Shown here piece after piece: positions 30,742-39,534 of a DNA stretch of 54,353 nucleotides (the first letter of the stretch is position 1; each line of letters starts with the position of its first letter). This stretch comes from Bacteroidota bacterium. GTDB lineage: Bacteria > Bacteroidota > Bacteroidia > Flavobacteriales_F > PHOS-HE28. The stretch covers positions 1 to 54,353 of the forward strand of contig JAFDZF010000064.1 of the NCBI GenBank assembly GCA_018267055.1, written 5' to 3'. The notes beneath the pieces were generated by a model. It was given only the letters and a program-made list of their open reading frames with translations, was not told where the DNA came from and did no database searches. Position numbers and translations under genes: made by a program.

Positions 30742-33700
30742 TCAGCGCACAAGCGTCACGTGCCCGAGGTATTCCTTCTCTTCCGCGGTGAGCGAGCTGC
30801 GGCAGCGCATGCGCATGGCATAGGTGCCGATGGGCAGGGGTTTGCCGCCCTGGTTGCGGTAGGTGCCGTTCCAGCCGATCGTGGGGTCGTTGGTCTCGAA
30901 CACCACCTCGCCCCAGCGGTCGAAGATCTGCCACTCCACGTCGGTGATCTCCGAGGTGTTGTGCACCAGGTACAGCACGTCGTTGGTGCCGTTGCCGTCG
31001 GGCGTGAAGGCGTTCGGGATGTAGGTGGTCAACGCGTCGTGCACCACCAGGTCCTGGCACAGCGTGTCGGCGCACAGGTTCTCGTCATAGGCGATCAGGC
31101 AGATGGGGTAGGTGCCGCCGTACTTGTACGGGAACCCGAACCCCGGTGTCACCTCGTCCGAGGCCCCCAGCTCCCCGAAGGTCCAGAAGTAGCGGGTGGC
31201 GTTGGCCGAGGTGTTGTAGAAGGTCACGAACGGCGCGTCCGTCATCACCGGGTCCGGCTGCCAGCCGAAGCCGGCCACCACCTGCGGCGGCTCCTGCACC
31301 ACGATGTACGAGCGGCCCACGCAGCCGTCGATGTTCTTGATGGCCACGCTGTAGCCGCCTGCGCACGCGCTGTCCAGCATGCTTTCCGGCCCGTAGTGCG
31401 CCCCGCCGTCGAAGCTGTACGCGATGGCCTCCGCATCCCGGAGGTAGGCCGCCCCGTCGCAATAGCCGTAGCAGGTGGTCGTCACGGACCACACCGAATC
31501 GATGGTCAGCAGTGGCGGCTCACCGATCGTGAACGCGGCCGAGTCCGCGCAGCCATTGGCGTCCGTCACCACGAGCGTGTAGGCGCCCGCGCAGATGGCG
31601 GGGGCCACCGCATCGCCGGTACCGGCGATGCCGCCGGACCAGGTGTACACGAAGCCGGACGGCGCGATGCCCCCGGTCACCGTGGCCTGGGCCGTGCCGT
31701 CGCAGGCCTCGAAGCAGATCGCATCCGTCAGCGCCAGGTCGACGGCCACCGGCTGCGTCAATGTCACCTGCACGCTGTCCCAGAGGTCGCAGGCCACGCC
31801 GTCGTTCTCATGCCAGTAGAACAGGTACGTGCCCGTCTGCGGAACCGTCACGGTGGCCTGCGGGTCGGCGGTATTGCTGAACACCGCGCCGGCGGGCCCC
31901 ACCCATTCGCCCATGCCGGGATAGGCCGTCATGGCGCGCAGGGGATAGCTCAGCGTGCACACCAGCGTGTCCGGCCCGGCATCGATCAGGCCGCAGCAGC
32001 TCGGGTCGGTCAGGGGCAGGATCGCGATCGCCAGCTCCGCGGCGCCCACGCATCCGTTGGGGCTGGTGATGGTGTAGGTGAAGGTGTCAGGCGAGGCCGT
32101 GAGCGGGTGGAACGAGCCGTCCACCACGTTTCCGGCGCCGTCGGTCCATACGCCACCGGGCGCCGGGTCACCGCCCAGCATATCGATGAGCTGGAAGGCC
32201 GGCGCGCTGGCGCATACCACGATGGACGTATCCTGGCCCGGCTGCACCGCGGGGTCCAGGTGGACGGTCACGCTGTCGGTCGTGGCGCATTCCGGGAAGC
32301 CGCTCGGGAAGGCATGCACGGTGTACAGCGTGGTGTTGTCCACCTGCGCCGTGGGGTTGGGGATGTTCGGGTTCGACAGCCCCTCGGCCGGTGTCCATTG
32401 GTAGGTGATGCCGCCGACCCCCGTGCTGGCGTTCAGCTGCACCGCGTTGTTGCAGATCGTCTGGTCGGGGCCCGCTTGCACCGGGATGGGCGGGTCCACC
32501 GTCACGGTGATGGTGGTGTCGTAGGCGCAGCCGAAGTTGTCCAGCACCGAGAGGGTGTAGCTATAGTCGCCCGGGGCGCTTGGCGTGGCATGGGCGATGA
32601 GCGGGTTGTTCGGGTCGCTCTGCACCGCGGGTCCCGACCAGCTGACGGAATCGCTGTACGCCGTCCCGATGCTCGGTGTGAATTGTGTGATGTCGGGGAT
32701 GATGGACGGGTCGAAATCGATCTCCCACGAACAGAGGAAACCGTCATCCGCCCCCCAGAAATCGCAGACCTGGAAGGTCCAGCTGCCGTTCAACGGGCAG
32801 CCCACCAGCGCGCTCATCGGGTTGAGGCTCGCATAGTCGCCCGGTGGAAGCACTGCGCCGCCCGCGTTCTGTACCCAGGTCCCGTTCGTCGCGGTCGGTG
32901 TCCAGCAATAGTTCAGGCATTCGCCCGGCGTCGGCGGGTCGGTCTCGCCGTCCAGCGCATTGCCGATGAAGGTGCCACCGCCGCCCTGTTGGTGGAAGAT
33001 GACGGATTGGTTGTTGGGGCAGCTCAGGGAGATCACCAGGTCGCCCATGAACGAATGTTCCATGCTCACGCACACGCCCAGCAGGTCATTGACGTTGGTC
33101 AGCGTCTGGCCGGGGTCGAACTGGGTGAAGTCGAGCGAGCTGGTGAAGCAGGCCCCCACGTCATCGGGCAGGTACACGCCGTCGCCGTAGTTGGCTTCCG
33201 GTATGCCGGTCCAGGTCACCGGGGTCACCACCCCGGTGAGGTCCACCTCCGCGCCATAGCAGACATGGGAGATGTTCGCGGTACCGGCGAAGGACGGCGT
33301 GGTGCTCACCAGCACCTGCAGGTCCACCACGTTGATGCTGTGGCAGTCGTTGTCGTCCGTGAGGTAGAGCTGCACCAGGTATTCGCCGGCCGCAGCGAAC
33401 GTGTGGCTCGTGAGCGGGCCGCTGGTGCTGTCCATGGAGCCGTCGTCGAAGTCCCACTTGTACTGCGCGATGTTGAAGCCCGCTGCCGCATGCGAGAGCG
33501 AGCCGTCGAAGTACACGGTCTCGCCCACGCAGATCCGCGCGGGCACCGGCTCGGACATGGTGGCCACCGCCGTGGGCGGCTCGCAGGGCGTGAAGCAGCT
33601 GATGGAGGCGGCGAAGATGCCCGTGCCGTTCGCGTTCGAGGTGAACTGCACCGTGAGGCAGCCCGAGGTGTTGAAGGCCGTGGCCGTGGCCACCAGCCCC

Positions 33701-34068
33701 TGCAGCTCCGTGCCCGTGTAGAAGCCCAGCGAGGGCGATGCGGTGCTGGGGCCATCGAAGATCGCCAGGCGGTCGATCGGGTTGGGACCCTGCGTGGACA
33801 GGTTGAACGTGATGAAATTCAGCGAGATGGCGTCCCCCGGCACGTCCGGGCAGATGGTCGCCGTGATGTTCTCATTGTTGCTGTAACCGCCGCCGCCCTG
33901 GCCGCCGCTGTCCAGCAAGGCGCCCGAACAGGCGGTGATGGTGCCCTCGGTGATCGGATGGGCCTGGCCGGCCGCCGTGCCGATGCCGGCCGTGGCGATC
34001 GCCAGGAGGCACGCCGATCGCAGGAGGCTCAGGGAACGCGTGGGAATAGCGGAGTAGTTAGGGGCCAA
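30742..34068 (-). CDS. T9SS type B cargo: CUB, PKD, P-domain, SprB-like repeat
   Basis: A 1108-residue modular surface protein. After a signal peptide (about 1-35) come a CUB-like domain (YSNNENITATICPDV to LAIFDGPSTASPS), a PKD domain (KWDFDDGSMDSTSGPLTSHTF), the P-domain module (CVSMEHSFMGDLVISLSCP to CDFWGADDGFLCSWEIDF) and Ig/PKD units. A SprB-like repeat (DAICFEACDGTAQATVTGG) and a final PKD follow, then the type B T9SS domain (YIPNAFTPDGNGTND, FDRWGEVVFETNDPTIGWNG). It probably acts as an adhesin or surface scaffold. No ATG precedes the signal peptide; translation seems to start at a TTG (34068). It follows the 1120-residue paralogue by 33 bases, so both are likely one operon. Confidence 0.88.
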   Translation of the reverse strand: MAPNYSAIPTRSLSLLRSACLLAIATAGIGTAAGQAHPITEGTITACSGALLDSGGQGGGGYSNNENITATICPDVPGDAISLNFITFNLSTQGPNPIDRLAIFDGPSTASPSLGFYTGTELQGLVATATAFNTSGCLTVQFTSNANGTGIFAASISCFTPCEPPTAVATMSEPVPARICVGETVYFDGSLSHAAAGFNIAQYKWDFDDGSMDSTSGPLTSHTFAAAGEYLVQLYLTDDNDCHSINVVDLQVLVSTTPSFAGTANISHVCYGAEVDLTGVVTPVTWTGIPEANYGDGVYLPDDVGACFTSSLDFTQFDPGQTLTNVNDLLGVCVSMEHSFMGDLVISLSCPNNQSVIFHQQGGGGTFIGNALDGETDPPTPGECLNYCWTPTATNGTWVQNAGGAVLPPGDYASLNPMSALVGCPLNGSWTFQVCDFWGADDGFLCSWEIDFDPSIIPDITQFTPSIGTAYSDSVSWSGPAVQSDPNNPLIAHATPSAPGDYSYTLSVLDNFGCAYDTTITVTVDPPIPVQAGPDQTICNNAVQLNASTGVGGITYQWTPAEGLSNPNIPNPTAQVDNTTLYTVHAFPSGFPECATTDSVTVHLDPAVQPGQDTSIVVCASAPAFQLIDMLGGDPAPGGVWTDGAGNVVDGSFHPLTASPDTFTYTITSPNGCVGAAELAIAILPLTDPSCCGLIDAGPDTLVCTLSYPLRAMTAYPGMGEWVGPAGAVFSNTADPQATVTVPQTGTYLFYWHENDGVACDLWDSVQVTLTQPVAVDLALTDAICFEACDGTAQATVTGGIAPSGFVYTWSGGIAGTGDAVAPAICAGAYTLVVTDANGCADSAAFTIGEPPLLTIDSVWSVTTTCYGYCDGAAYLRDAEAIAYSFDGGAHYGPESMLDSACAGGYSVAIKNIDGCVGRSYIVVQEPPQVVAGFGWQPDPVMTDAPFVTFYNTSANATRYFWTFGELGASDEVTPGFGFPYKYGGTYPICLIAYDENLCADTLCQDLVVHDALTTYIPNAFTPDGNGTNDVLYLVHNTSEITDVEWQIFDRWGEVVFETNDPTIGWNGTYRNQGGKPLPIGTYAMRMRCRSSLTAEEKEYLGHVTLVR

Positions 34069-34101: not shown

Positions 34102-37100
34102 CTAGCGGACCACGCTGACATGCCCGAGCATCTCGTGGTCGTTCTGCGTATAGGCGGAGCGGGCTTTCAGTTTCCAGACATAGACGCCGTTCTTGACCAC
34201 CGAGCCGCCCAGGCGGCCGTCCCAGGGTTTGGTGGGGTCGTTCGTGGCGAAGATCTCCTTGCCCCACCGGTCGAAGATGCGCAGGTCGAACCCGGCCTTC
34301 ATGTCGATGTCGTTGCCTTGGACGAAGAAGAAGTCGTTCAATCCGTCACCGTCCGGCGTGAACGCATTGGGTGTGAACACCAGGAACTGGTCGTGGATCT
34401 CCACCAGCCGCATCACGCTGTCCGCGCAGCCCAGGTAGTTCTCCACGCGCAGGGTCACCGGGTACACGCCGCCCACGTCCTCCGGGAAGGTGTGGACGGC
34501 GGTGGGACCGCTCGCAGTATCCGCTCCGGCGAACTGCCATTGGTAGTCCACCGCCCAGGGCCCGGCCTGCTCGGTGAAGGTCAGCGTGGGGGCCAGCACC
34601 GAGGCCGGGTTCGGGCTCCAGGTGAACTCCGCCTTCGGGATCGGCACCACGCGGATCATGTTGTCCGCCACCGTGGTGTCGTTGCAGCCATTGGGCCAAT
34701 GCACGATGGCCGTCACGTCGTAGTAGCCGCTCAGCGAATAGATGAAGTCGCGGATCGGCCCGGCCAGCACCGAGGCGTCCGTGCCGAAGTTCCAGTCCAC
34801 CGTGGCGCCGCCCGTGGTGTCCTTCACCGTGAAGGTCACGTGGAAGGGCGCGCAGCCCAGGACCGTGTCGGCGCTCAGCTCCAGCACCGGGATCGGCAGC
34901 ACATCGAAGTAGGTGCACAGCGGCAAGGCGGGCGTTTCGCAACCGTCCGTCAGCGTCACGCAGATGTTCTGCGAGGCCGTGAGGTTCACCGTCCGCACCG
35001 TGTCCGGCGAAGGGCCGGACCCCCAGTCGAACGCGTAGGCCCCGTCACCGCCGGAAGCCAGGTTGGCGAACAGCTGGGTGTCCACTTCGGGGCATACCAC
35101 CAGTGTGTCCGGCAGGATGAAGGCCAGCGGTCCGCGCACGTTCACGGTGGCCTCCAGCGTGTCGGAGGGGCAGTTGTTCGCGTCCGATACGCTCACTACG
35201 TACACGGTGGTGTCCAGCGGGGAGACCATCTGGAAGCCGCCCGGCGGAAGGGCGTTGTTCCAGTTCAACTGCAGGGGCTCCGTCCCTCCGATGGCCGATG
35301 CCGTCAGCGTGGCCAGGCCGGTCAGGCAGATCGTGGTGTCGTTGCTCAGCGAGACCATCTGGAGCAGGTCCGGCTGGATGATCTCGGCCATTAGGCTGTC
35401 CTTGCAGTTGTTGCCGTTCGGGCCTTCCTTGATGATCGCCTTGTAGAGGCCGGCCGGGCCCGTGAAGCTGTCGCCCAGGGCCCCGAGCGTGGTCTGCACC
35501 ACGTTGCCGTACGCATCCTTCCACGTGTAGTCCCAGGGCCCGCCGGTGCCGGTGGTGATCACCTGCACCGTGCCATCGATACCGTAGCACAGCGGGTGGA
35601 CGATCAGGCTGTCGTCCGCCAGGGTGGTCAAAGGGTTCACCCGCACGCTGTCCACCATCCCGCATTCCGGATGCCCGGCGGGGAACGCATGCAGCCTGTA
35701 CCACGTGGGCACGGGCGGGTTGGCGATGGGGAAGGCGCTGTTCGGGTTCGAGAGGCCGGCGGCCGGGCTCCAGTTGTAGGTGATGGCGCCCTGGGGCATG
35801 GGCGGCGTGAAGTGGATGCCGAGCTGGATGGGGTTGCCGCACACCGCCGGAGGCGCCGCGGTGGCCTCGAAGACCGCCCCGGGCGTCACGGTGAGATGGA
35901 AGGTGGTATCATAAGTGCAGCCGAAATTGTCGGTCACGGTATACACATAATCATAGGTGCCATATGTGTCCGGCGTAGCGGTCACCACGTTGCAGGCCGG
36001 TCCGGGGTTCGAGATGAAGGGACCGCTCCAGTGGCTGCTATCGCAATCCGATCCTACCGTAGGCGTGAACTCGATCACATCCGGGTAAAGTGCCGGATTG
36101 ATATCCATCGATACGTTGAACACAACGCCATCGTCGATGCAGAGTTGGTCCAGAACGCTCACGGTCCATGTGCCGTTCAGGTTGCACCCGTCCCACACAC
36201 TAAAAGGATCCTGGGGGGTATAGGTGCCCGGGGCCATGCTGTTGCCCGGGGGATCGCCAGCAGTTACCCAGTTGCCGTTCTGGTTCTCATCGGTGATGGT
36301 GCCCCATGTGGCCGAAGGCGTGAAGCAATACTGGAACCCGGTCCCGGGAATACCGGTGGAATTATCCAAGGGAGACCCGAGGTATGTACCTCCTCCTCCA
36401 TTGTTGTAGCCATCGAACAATACGGCACTCGCTCCGTCCGGACACTGGAGCGAGACCGTGAGGTCACCGAGGTAGGAATGCTCCATTGTGATGCAGACCT
36501 GCAGGATATCCGTGTTGCCATTGACGGTCGTGCCTGCCGGGAAGCCGGATACATTGAGCGCCGATGTGTACAAGGCATCATCGGGACAGGCATCCGGGAG
36601 CACAAAAACCCCGGAGATCAAAGGCTCGGGGACGCTCGACCAAAGGGAGCCCTCGACCGAGCCGGTGAGCGTGACAGTGCTTCCGTCGCAGATCGTGTTC
36701 GCGCTGAAGCCTGTGCCCGTGTAGTCGGGATAGGTACCCACGCGCACCAGTTCAGCGCTGCTGTTCGTGCTCATACACCCGATATCGTCGGTCACCACCA
36801 GCAATATCGGGAACTGCCCCGGGGTCGGCACGGGCAGCAGTACGGTCGGATCGGTCGCGAACGTGGTGACCCCAGCTATCGTCCAGGCATAGCTGATCAG
36901 CGTGCGTCCTGGTGCAGGATAGGAGCCCCCCCCGTTGATCAGGAGCGTATCGTAGGGACATACCTTGTAGGGGCTTTCCGGAAATGGCGGGAAGTAGGCG
37001 GTCGGCTGAGGACAGGGGTTCGTGCATTGGATCAGGGCGGTCCAGCCGCTGGCCACTCCTGAGCCGTTGGAGATGAATTGTATGGTGATGCATCCACCGC

Positions 37101-37464
37101 TGTTCTGGGCGGTCCATAGGGTCCCGGATAGCGCGGTAGCCGAAGTGGTCAATACCGGCGAACTGGTGTTCGGGCCATCATAGATCGTCAGCAGGTCGCC
37201 ATTGACGATCGTCACATCATTGAACCCGATCTGGATACTGTCCCCGAGGTTGCCGGGACAAAAGGTGATGGTGTGGCTCTCGTTGTTCGAATAGGTGCCG
37301 TTAGGTCCACCGCTGTCGTAGAACAAGGCGTTGCAGTATACCTGTGTTCCCCCTTCGGAGATGAGCACCTCCGGGGTTTGGGCCTGGAGGTGAAGGGTCG
37401 GCACGGCGACCAGGAGCAGTACCCGTGCGGAAGCGAAGATTGGCGTTGTGCGATCCGCGAACAT
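34102..37464 (-). CDS. T9SS type B cargo: CUB, PKD, P-domain, SprB-like repeat (paralogue)
   Basis: A 1120-residue paralogue of the downstream gene. Signal peptide 1-28 (ending HLQAQ), CUB-like domain (TYSNNESHTITFCPG to LLTIYDGPNTSSP), PKD-like domain, P-domain module (CITMEHSYLGDLTVSLQCP to WTVSVLDQLCIDDG), an Ig/PKD unit, SprB-like and PKD repeats, and the type B tail (FTPNAFTPDGDGLND, IFDRWGKEIFATNDPTKPWD). Base composition changes sharply near 35,880: the part encoding the N-terminal half has about 48-63% GC in sampled rows, the C-terminal half above 70%. The start at 37464 is the only ATG giving the signal peptide. Upstream, GAAATTCG at 37502-37509 is one base off the -7 form. Surface adhesin or matrix protein by inference. 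Confidence 0.88.
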   Translation of the reverse strand: MFADRTTPIFASARVLLLVAVPTLHLQAQTPEVLISEGGTQVYCNALFYDSGGPNGTYSNNESHTITFCPGNLGDSIQIGFNDVTIVNGDLLTIYDGPNTSSPVLTTSATALSGTLWTAQNSGGCITIQFISNGSGVASGWTALIQCTNPCPQPTAYFPPFPESPYKVCPYDTLLINGGGSYPAPGRTLISYAWTIAGVTTFATDPTVLLPVPTPGQFPILLVVTDDIGCMSTNSSAELVRVGTYPDYTGTGFSANTICDGSTVTLTGSVEGSLWSSVPEPLISGVFVLPDACPDDALYTSALNVSGFPAGTTVNGNTDILQVCITMEHSYLGDLTVSLQCPDGASAVLFDGYNNGGGGTYLGSPLDNSTGIPGTGFQYCFTPSATWGTITDENQNGNWVTAGDPPGNSMAPGTYTPQDPFSVWDGCNLNGTWTVSVLDQLCIDDGVVFNVSMDINPALYPDVIEFTPTVGSDCDSSHWSGPFISNPGPACNVVTATPDTYGTYDYVYTVTDNFGCTYDTTFHLTVTPGAVFEATAAPPAVCGNPIQLGIHFTPPMPQGAITYNWSPAAGLSNPNSAFPIANPPVPTWYRLHAFPAGHPECGMVDSVRVNPLTTLADDSLIVHPLCYGIDGTVQVITTGTGGPWDYTWKDAYGNVVQTTLGALGDSFTGPAGLYKAIIKEGPNGNNCKDSLMAEIIQPDLLQMVSLSNDTTICLTGLATLTASAIGGTEPLQLNWNNALPPGGFQMVSPLDTTVYVVSVSDANNCPSDTLEATVNVRGPLAFILPDTLVVCPEVDTQLFANLASGGDGAYAFDWGSGPSPDTVRTVNLTASQNICVTLTDGCETPALPLCTYFDVLPIPVLELSADTVLGCAPFHVTFTVKDTTGGATVDWNFGTDASVLAGPIRDFIYSLSGYYDVTAIVHWPNGCNDTTVADNMIRVVPIPKAEFTWSPNPASVLAPTLTFTEQAGPWAVDYQWQFAGADTASGPTAVHTFPEDVGGVYPVTLRVENYLGCADSVMRLVEIHDQFLVFTPNAFTPDGDGLNDFFFVQGNDIDMKAGFDLRIFDRWGKEIFATNDPTKPWDGRLGGSVVKNGVYVWKLKARSAYTQNDHEMLGHVSVVR

Positions 37465-37576
37465 TGCTTGGGAGACGTATCGGAAGAGGCATCCGGTGCC
37501 CCGAATTTCCGAAGCGGTCCACGTCTTTCCAGCCCTCCCTTCACGGATCCTTGGAACGCTTGGGCCTCAAGCAAAA

Positions 37577-37599
37577 GACCCCGGCCGAAGGCCGGGGTC
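37577..37599 (-). terminator. Terminator of the sigma factor operon
   Basis: A 10-bp perfect stem (GACCCCGGCC / GGCCGGGGTC) capped on the minus strand by C(TTCG)G, followed by TTTTGCTTG. It lies 25 bases after the stop of the PKD membrane protein gene and separates the sigma operon from the cargo genes. Confidence 0.85.
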
Positions 37600-37623
37600 C
37601 AAGGAGTTCGCGGAACGGTCGTC

Positions 37624-38895
37624 CTAACGGGTCAATTTCACCTTGCCGGTGTAGGTCTCGGCCAGGTGCAGGCTCTCGCTCACATCGGCCACCCAGACGT
37701 ACTCGCCGGCGGGGCACAGTTCGCCCTCGTTGCGGGGGCGTCCGGTCCAGGGCTTGGTGGCGTCGCTGGTCTCGTACACGAGGCTGCCGTTCGGGTCGTA
37801 GATGGCCAGGTGGAACTTCACCCCCAGGGTGCGCAGCGCCTCGGGCATGAAGGTCTCCTGTGAGCCATCGCCGTTCGGGGAGAGCACGGTGGGGGCGTCC
37901 AGGTTGTAGTCCCGGTCGATCCGCACTTCCTTCAGGCTCTTGTCCACGCAGCCCAGCTCGCTCGTCACCGTCAGCTCCACCTGGTAGATGCCCTTCTTCT
38001 TGTAGATGTGGTCGGGGTGGGCGATGGCGCTGGTGGCCCCGTCGCCGAAGTCCCAGTGGTAGGTCTTCGCGCCCAGCGTGCGGTTCTCGAAGTGCACCGA
38101 CGGGATGTGGCCCTCGAACTCCTGTTTCATGGGGTTGAAGGCGGCCCGCGGGGCCTCGTGGATCACGATCATGTCGCTGCTGGGCTTGTTGTGGATGGTG
38201 CCCACGCCCGTGGACGACATGGAGAGCATCACCTGGTAGTTGCCCGGCTTGCTGTAGGTGTGTTCGGGGTTCGGCTTGTTGCTGAAGCTGCCGTCGCCGA
38301 AGTTCCAGAGGTAGATGCCGTCTTCGGGCATGCGCTCCACCTTGAACTCCACAGGGGTACCGGGGCAGCCTTCGCTCACGCTGGAGCGGAAGGCGGCGTC
38401 GGAGCTGACCGAGGGGCCGGGGGAGGCCGGGGTCGGTTCGGCCGGCCGGGTCGGGGCGGTGACGCGGGCCTTCACCTCGGCCGGGGCCTTGCGGGTCTCC
38501 TGCACGGGGGACGCCTCGGCGGGCGTGGCGGCGTAGATGCCGCCCGTGCTCGGACGGTCCACTGCCGTGCCGGGCGTGCCGCCCACCGGTGCCACAGCGG
38601 CCACGGTCCGGTCGGTATCGGTATCGGCCGGTACGGCGGCCGGTGTGCCGTTGCTCAGGTCGGTCTCGGGGGTCTTGTCGCGCACCAGGAGGTAGGCCGT
38701 GGTGCCGACCAGCAGCGCACCGCCCACCAAGGCGGCCAGGAGCCCGATGCGGACACCTCCCCAACTGCGCACGCCGCCGGCCAGTGTGCGCTCCATCTGG
38801 GCCCAATCGGCCGAGTTGTAAGGCACCTCGAACTGCTCGAGGCTCTCTTTCACCCGCCGCTCGAAGAGGTCCAGGTCGTTCTTGCTTTCTGCCAT
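37624..38895 (-). CDS. Single-pass membrane PKD protein with T9SS-like C-terminal domain, putative anti-sigma sensor
   Basis: A 423-residue protein. Residues 1-47 are cytoplasmic (LDLFERRVKESLEQFEVPYN, then SADWAQMERTLAG), followed by one membrane helix (IGLLAALVGGALLVGTTAYLLV, about 49-70). A Thr/Pro/Ala-rich linker reaches about residue 165. Two PKD domains follow (YLWNFGDGSFSNKPNPEHTY; YHWDFGDGATSAIAHPDHIY). The last 90 residues (VLSPNGDGSQETF, IYDPNGSLVYETSDATKPWT, KVKLTR) resemble the type B T9SS domain of the cargo genes. The gene begins 3 bases after the ECF sigma stop, so an anti-sigma role for the short cytoplasmic part is inferred; no known anti-sigma domain is recognised. The terminal domain is probably periplasmic here. 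Confidence 0.78.
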   Translation of the reverse strand: MAESKNDLDLFERRVKESLEQFEVPYNSADWAQMERTLAGGVRSWGGVRIGLLAALVGGALLVGTTAYLLVRDKTPETDLSNGTPAAVPADTDTDRTVAAVAPVGGTPGTAVDRPSTGGIYAATPAEASPVQETRKAPAEVKARVTAPTRPAEPTPASPGPSVSSDAAFRSSVSEGCPGTPVEFKVERMPEDGIYLWNFGDGSFSNKPNPEHTYSKPGNYQVMLSMSSTGVGTIHNKPSSDMIVIHEAPRAAFNPMKQEFEGHIPSVHFENRTLGAKTYHWDFGDGATSAIAHPDHIYKKKGIYQVELTVTSELGCVDKSLKEVRIDRDYNLDAPTVLSPNGDGSQETFMPEALRTLGVKFHLAIYDPNGSLVYETSDATKPWTGRPRNEGELCPAGEYVWVADVSESLHLAETYTGKVKLTR

Positions 38896-38898
38896 CGC

Positions 38899-39534
38899 TC
38901 AGGGAAGCTTGTGCTCCTTTTTAAGCAGTTTCCTCAGATTATGTTTCGCCTTGGCCAAGTTGCTCTTCGAGGTCCCGATGTTGATGCCCAGCGAATCGGC
39001 GATCTCCTTGTGCGTCATCTCCTCGAAGACGTACAGGTTGAAGACCGTCCGGTAGGCCGGGGTCAGTTTCTGCATGGCATTGATCACGTCGGCGGGCTTC
39101 AGGTCCAGCTCCTCCATGCTCTCCTCGTCCTGGAGGGTGTCCTCCTCGTCCTGGTCGCCGAAATCCTCGATGCTCCGCTCTTCGCCAAGAAGCAGGTAGG
39201 CGTTCTTGGCGCGCCGGAAATAGTCGATGGCCGTGTTCACCATGATCCGGCGGATCCAGCCCTCGAAGCTGCCCGCGCGGTTGAACTTGTCCATGCTGCG
39301 GAACACCTTGATGAACCCGTCCTGCAGGATGTCCTTGGCTTGGTCGTGGTTCTTGGTGTAGCGCAGGCATACGGCCATCATCTTCCCATAGAAGAGCTCA
39401 TAGACGCGCTGTTGGCTCCGGCGTTCCCCCGCGATGCATCCATCGATCAATCGCGCGAACGCCTGCTCCACCGCCTCCATGCCCTGCCATGTAGGGTCCA
39501 GACGTAGGTTCTCGGCCAAGGTTGCCAATTCCAT
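38899..39534 (-). CDS. ECF RNA polymerase sigma factor
   Basis: A 211-residue sigma-70 family protein of the extracytoplasmic-function type. Region 2 (YELFYGKMMAVCLRYTKNHD through GWIRRIMVNTAIDYFRR, about residues 45-105) binds core polymerase and the -10 element. Region 4 (LTPAYRTVFNLYVFEEMTHK then EIADSLGINIGTSKSNLAKA, about 155-205) has the helix-turn-helix. The acidic linker between them (EDFGDQDEEDTLQDEESMEE) is unusually long. There is no region 1 or 3. The next gene on the strand starts 3 bases later and encodes a single-pass membrane protein likely to control it. Divergent from mdh. The start at 39534 is the first ATG after the intergenic region; TATCTTAC at 39559-39566 is a weak -7-like match. 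Confidence 0.92.
   Translation of the reverse strand: MELATLAENLRLDPTWQGMEAVEQAFARLIDGCIAGERRSQQRVYELFYGKMMAVCLRYTKNHDQAKDILQDGFIKVFRSMDKFNRAGSFEGWIRRIMVNTAIDYFRRAKNAYLLLGEERSIEDFGDQDEEDTLQDEESMEELDLKPADVINAMQKLTPAYRTVFNLYVFEEMTHKEIADSLGINIGTSKSNLAKAKHNLRKLLKKEHKLP

Follow-up and report, generated by a model that had tools for sequence, protein, structure and literature searches.

The window, which is the whole stretch of DNA that was analysed, comprises 54,353 nucleotides from a member of the Bacteroidota. Its (-) strand carries a gene for an ECF sigma factor, a gene for an anti-sigma-like membrane protein and two genes for T9SS cargo proteins. These genes and their associated features are as follows.

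39500..39526, (-): ECF-type promoter motif GGCAACC-N15-CGTCT, located 19 nt before the ATG at 39480
38899..39534, (-): ECF sigma factor ORF, 211 aa as an ORF (Pfam and NCBIfam matches)
37624..38895, (-): anti-sigma-like membrane protein of 423 aa (ORF, Pfam, AlphaFold, conservation in the genus)
38755..38895, (-): residues 1-47 of this protein, a putative sigma-binding cytoplasmic segment with two helices at 8-20 and 28-40 (AlphaFold)
38683..38751, (-): single membrane helix, residues 49-71 (AlphaFold and family alignment)
38404..38682, (-): disordered Pro/Ala/Thr-rich linker, residues 72-164 (pLDDT below 50 at 67-164)
37918..38403, (-): two PKD domains, residues about 165-245 and 249-326 (Pfam, AlphaFold)
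37627..37908, (-): domain resembling a T9SS type B C-terminal domain (CTD; CHU_C), residues 330-423, without the RWG motif (Pfam, motif count, fold)
37576..37600, (-): intrinsic terminator with an 11-bp stem containing 9 G-C pairs, at the end of the sigma/anti-sigma transcript
34102..37464, (-): type B T9SS cargo protein of 1120 aa with the RWG motif (Pfam, NCBIfam)
30742..34068, (-): second type B T9SS cargo protein, 1108 aa (Pfam, NCBIfam)

The sigma factor ORF contains only the sigma-70 regions 2 and 4 (Pfam Sigma70_r2, 61.6 bits; r4_2, 52.8 bits), as is characteristic of ECF sigma factors, and it scores 103.8 bits against the NCBIfam sigma70-ECF model, for which the cut-off is 42.9. The real start codon is probably M19 at 39480, which gives a protein of 193 aa, because the conserved ECF-type promoter sits within the annotated N-terminus. 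Only 3 nt (TGA GCG ATG, stop and start codons included) separate this ORF from that of the 423-aa protein. The latter occupies the conserved position directly downstream of the sigma gene that is expected of a cognate anti-sigma factor, and this suggests that it has anti-sigma activity. Thus, the ORFs, Pfam and AlphaFold agree with the first-pass annotation, which had described an ECF sigma gene followed after 3 bases by a membrane protein with one helix and two PKD domains. It had also placed the cargo genes directly downstream in the same direction. They do lie downstream on the same strand, but a strong terminator (37600-37576) closes the sigma/anti-sigma unit ahead of them, and therefore co-transcription of the cargo is not implied. 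A weak candidate for an ECF-like promoter (GGCACCG-N16-CGTCT) is located just upstream of the first cargo gene.

The AlphaFold model of the 423-aa protein, based on an 11-sequence alignment, has helices at residues 8-20, 28-40 and 49-71, disorder at 67-164 and three well-predicted beta domains. The N-terminus is hydrophilic and the membrane helix, the only one, begins at residue 49, which speaks against an N-terminal Sec signal peptide. Residues 1-47 are modelled with a pLDDT of about 45-70, are conserved in our alignment (A2), and have related segments that occur as tandem copies in PorP/SprF-fused relatives. A Pfam search with residues 1-165 gives no match. Downstream of the helix, the distance to the first PKD cysteine is about 110 residues in the family, and the linker could span the periplasm when extended. 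Pfam PKD_4 matches two stretches with 98.3 bits. The two cysteines C177 and C316, one in each PKD domain, are invariant in a 24-row alignment, and a disulfide between them is possible.

Residues 333-408 match the Pfam model CHU_C (PF13585) with 44.2 bits, well above the cut-off of 27. Against TIGR04131, the type B model of NCBIfam and the stricter of the two, the score is 29.3 bits and the cut-off 35. Hence the proposed type B T9SS domain is recognized by the first profile but falls short of the second. A direct match to the neighbouring cargo had been claimed as well, and this is borne out by BLASTP, which aligns the 423-aa protein with the 34102..37464 product at E 1e-20 over the PKD and CTD regions; both of the peptide matches quoted for this pair are present. 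The CTD modelled alone is well predicted and matches T9SS CTD structures in a fold search (8glk_D, Z 8.4; PorZ, 8.2), but these matches are unspecific, since other Ig-like folds unrelated to T9SS score Z 7-9. A fold search with the whole model is uninformative for the CTD, as it is dominated by tandem PKD/Ig proteins.

There are clear differences between the CTDs of these anti-sigma-like proteins and those of genuine cargo. The motif [ND]RWG is found in none of 44 anti-sigma CTDs, whereas it is present in 124 of 155 non-redundant cargo CTDs, a set that includes about six anti-sigmas (fetched loci L109 and L114-L118). A terminal Arg or Lys is present in 23 of the 44 and in 131 of the 155, respectively. 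Some anti-sigma CTDs have also lost NGDG, while some others keep both NGDG and the terminal Arg. A regular expression for F/W-x-P did not separate the two groups. In the CTD of SprB, all five conserved motifs are individually required for secretion (PMC12618676), and RWG appears to belong to one of them. Because the [ND]RWG of most cargo CTDs is missing, the anti-sigma CTDs probably represent specialised, non-exported bait. The domain is therefore not the faithful mimic of cargo that the first-pass annotation had envisaged.

Equivalents of the N-terminal 85 residues are found in 21 of 22 genomes of the same genus (the window's own excluded), and the genome that lacks one is 76% complete. More distant equivalents occur in other families, and the sigma gene is directly upstream in nearly all loci read. 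Besides the genus, twelve further family-level groups of the class show the same gene order. Conservation of the pair in the genus and in many families argues that the arrangement is not due to chance, and with such a distribution the pair is ancient. In the genus, the gene immediately after the pair encodes type B cargo at all 12 loci with long enough sequence. It is also found after the pair in families f9, f15, f50 and f23, in one locus each of f32 and f5 and in two named MAGs. No type B cargo lies beside the CTD-fused pair in f22, f29, f63, f30 and f18.

Of 149 genomes of the class that were searched with a profile of the sigma factor, 112 gave a match at E <= 1e-45. The gene after the sigma gene, examined at 70 loci, has one of three designs: a protein with a C-terminal CTD, a protein with a C-terminal outer-membrane barrel, or a short form of roughly 210-275 residues without a recognisable fold. 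CHU_C is detected in 31 of the 35 CTD-type members. Four barrel-type members from one family (f11; L191-L194) carry a barrel that matches PorP/SprF with 61-83 bits (cut-off 22.3). In each of these loci, the next gene encodes a protein of about 214 residues with an N-terminus that, by eye, resembles that of a lipoprotein, and with a CTD that passes the cut-offs of both CHU_C and TIGR04131. The anti-sigmas themselves begin with several tandem copies of a sigma-binding-like motif, which are followed by the membrane helix and the barrel. In families f35, f42 and f19, the short anti-sigma has a complete PorP/SprF gene after it, as is the case at 7 of the 11 short-clade loci; four such genes checked by Pfam score 211-228 bits. 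One locus, L081, has no PorP/SprF gene in its 3.6 kb and was left out of the count of short anti-sigmas with PorP/SprF. The short anti-sigmas of L054, L059, L061, L065, L070, L073 and L076 share a tail, FGD[QM]ID-x-x-KG[FI], after a disordered stretch. These anti-sigmas adjoin PorP/SprF, and the tail is possibly a docking peptide.

In a tree of the sigma factors, whose support values come from a quick tree, the 33 nearest CTD-fused loci and the 4 PorP/SprF-fused loci are located on one side of a branch with an SH-aLRT value of 92, and the loci with short anti-sigmas form a separate clade with a support of 98. For lower-scoring sigma relatives, the partner is mostly a generic barrel or a short protein, with neither a CTD nor PorP/SprF within 11 kb; the exceptions are the paralogs in the genus and, in addition, the loci L235 and L253. 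Type B CTDs are known to bind PorP/SprF-like shuttles (PMC9143113, PMC12618676). In related operons PorP/SprF stands in for the CTD, and this links the module specifically to the type B CTD-PorP/SprF pair and not to generic Ig domains. Together with the published binding, it indicates that both members of one recognition pair share the same place in the operon. The contig of the window has no PorP/SprF gene, and there are 13 elsewhere in the genome.

The presence of SprA was considered as a discriminator between module types and set aside, since SprA is found in 60 of 61 genomes alike for all module types. Genome G078 (family f15), which has a CTD-type anti-sigma and type B cargo, yielded neither SprA nor GldN in searches of its roughly 130-contig, 95% complete assembly, so the apparent absence is uncertain and perhaps due to gaps. 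The genome of the window also contains a second sigma/anti-sigma-like pair (G000:C4:4499-5023 with L106:638-1699). In its 354-aa partner protein, the sigma-binding-like motif occurs in two N-terminal copies, and CHU_C matches with 47.5 bits. This pair lies upstream of CTD-bearing genes, and the exact promoter motif is absent there.

The sequence GGCA[A/T]CC-N15-CGTCT is found exactly upstream of the sigma gene in 17 of 17 aligned genus loci. Because it precedes the sigma gene, the window's sigma factor would be the one that reads it, and autoregulation is probable. Seven exact sites in the window's genome alone are too few to define a regulon, and a scan of 31 genus genomes was used instead, which gave 121 matches compared to 9 for a reversed control. 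A gene for a DUF5684 membrane protein lies downstream of the motif at 18 loci, including G000:C162:15231-15257 (L284), mostly with the motif 52-59 nt ahead of the ATG. Other recurrent downstream genes encode a TraB/GumN protein (7 loci) and a protein of about 270 aa without a Pfam match (6 loci); further ones code for secreted proteins that end in type A tails and for two proteins whose similarity to DUF6089 is sub-threshold. Few of the exact-motif targets in the genus are T9SS genes, and most lie outside the T9SS core.

A conserved element of about 90 nt follows the motif in 21 of 21 genus loci found with a 20-mer (L376-L396). It consists of a 5' stem, a conserved unpaired core CCTTGCAGGTTTACCG and a GC-rich terminator hairpin with a T run. 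A covariance model locates it in the window's genome at G000:C75:22582-22677 (+) (L397; E 4e-17), right after one motif site. The element has no match in a search of Rfam, and we consider it a candidate for a sigma-dependent small RNA.

Several known systems share parts of this design. The Dma/Das pairs of Bacteroides (PMC13088901) likewise have an adjacent sigma gene in a Bacteroidota host, a cytoplasmic N-terminus and a helix in the inner membrane, and their C-terminal module is meant to extend to the outer membrane; barrel-type relatives are present within the same sigma tree here. In the window's protein, one inner-membrane helix similarly separates the presumed cytoplasmic N-terminus from a long, presumably periplasmic part. 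However, Dma proteins carry a generic OMP barrel, whereas this protein ends in an Ig-like T9SS type B CTD on a stalk of two PKD domains; barrels, among them PorP/SprF, occur in its relatives only. Dma partners are ECF21-family sigma factors, and the likeness described here is one of architecture. By analogy, the pair may operate in the manner of the dual-membrane Dma proteins, the generic barrel being exchanged for a T9SS module. The SprB-SprF and PG1035-PorP pairs (PMC9143113, PMC12618676) resemble the present system in having CHU_C above the Pfam cut-off, and PorP/SprF homologs are present in our related operons. They differ in that their CTD protein is exported, whereas here it is anchored in the inner membrane, is encoded beside a sigma gene and lacks [ND]RWG in all 44 cases.

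In the PorA-PorXY-SigP route of P. gingivalis (PMC7712824), too, a T9SS-linked ECF sigma factor acts downstream of a protein with a CTD. PorA is a surface protein that acts via a two-component system, whereas here the CTD is part of a membrane protein encoded next to the sigma gene, and PorX and PorY are absent from the operon. A route distinct from PorX/PorY/SigP, as had been proposed, is therefore plausible. The SM6 regulon of F. psychrophilum (PMC9723704), compared on these two features alone, shares an ECF-type promoter with a CGT -10 box and an ECF/anti-sigma operon (THC0290_1774/1773). In that organism the motif precedes GldN, PorU and a PG0189 homolog (PMC9723704). These two systems are functional precedents for a connection to T9SS. 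In a literature search, with subscription journals outside its scope, no anti-sigma was described with a CTD or PorP/SprF module, and anti-sigma, PorP and SprF appear together only in the F. psychrophilum paper (PMC9723704).

The outer end of the membrane protein is similar to a T9SS secretion tag, and its place is taken in relatives by the known outer-membrane receptor of that tag; T9SS is therefore probably used as a sensor for gene control. With slightly better than even confidence, we propose that the pair forms a sigma/anti-sigma switch that spans the envelope and is organised around the type B recognition pair of T9SS, with the CTD docking onto a PorP/SprF-type shuttle. Residues ~1-47 would tether the ECF sigma factor to the inner membrane. 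The helix, the long flexible linker and the two PKD domains would carry the CTD across the periplasm. There, the degenerate and probably non-exported CTD would dock onto a PorP/SprF-type outer-membrane shuttle, as suggested by the published binding and by those related operons that have PorP/SprF where the CTD would be. Perhaps a change in docking, such as cargo competing for the shuttle or an impaired shuttle or translocon, causes the anti-sigma to be released or degraded. Once freed, the sigma factor would activate its own promoter together with a small regulon that includes the DUF5684 gene and the small-RNA candidate.

The shuttle, rather than the SprA channel, is most likely the direct partner of the CTD. 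In the alternative suggested by the first-pass annotation, the CTD would pose as cargo at the SprA translocon itself, signal that the channel is busy or blocked and thereby induce T9SS or cargo genes in feedback. The homology to cargo CTDs, the synteny with cargo, the weak ECF-like promoter ahead of cargo in some genus loci and the F. psychrophilum precedent, where a motif with a CGT box precedes T9SS genes and an ECF/anti-sigma pair (PMC9723704), are all consistent with such a circuit. However, RWG is missing in 44 of 44 anti-sigma CTDs and SprB CTD motif mutants are not secreted (PMC12618676), the element that swaps with the CTD is PorP/SprF and not SprA, and the targets with an exact motif are mostly outside the T9SS core. 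We therefore regard this mechanism as unlikely.

There is also a small chance that T9SS moves the CTD to the cell surface, where it is parked on PorP/SprF in a Dma1-like span of both membranes until a surface ligand or lost anchoring triggers release. Loss of RWG, together with frequent loss of NGDG or the terminal Arg/Lys, speaks against such export, and the protein remains tethered by its inner-membrane helix. T9SS normally exports released periplasmic proteins. Nevertheless, some members retain NGDG and the terminal Arg, Dma-like barrel relatives are present in the same sigma tree (PMC13088901), and in P. gingivalis a CTD protein, PorA, takes part in signalling upstream of SigP (PMC7712824). 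If, on the other hand, the domain were simply an Ig-like periplasmic sensor or stalk with no role in T9SS, its T9SS neighbours would be coincidental. The similar scores of non-T9SS Ig-like folds and the TIGR04131 score below cut-off would fit this explanation, but PorP/SprF replaces or accompanies the CTD in related operons and cargo synteny extends to several families, which makes it improbable.

How cells sense T9SS function is an open question, for which the literature searched describes only PorXY-SigP (with PorA). If the docking model is correct, an anti-sigma that bears either the secretion signal or the receptor for it would connect secretion directly to transcription, and dual-membrane anti-sigmas would extend past generic barrels. 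A further gain would be a candidate for an envelope-stress small RNA, of which few are known in the phylum. More tentatively, and with somewhat less than even confidence, these loci might represent a Bacteroidota-wide class of sigma/anti-sigma pairs in which CTD and PorP/SprF are interchangeable sensor modules, and which would provide a sigma-E-like response to T9SS secretion stress with its own small RNA.
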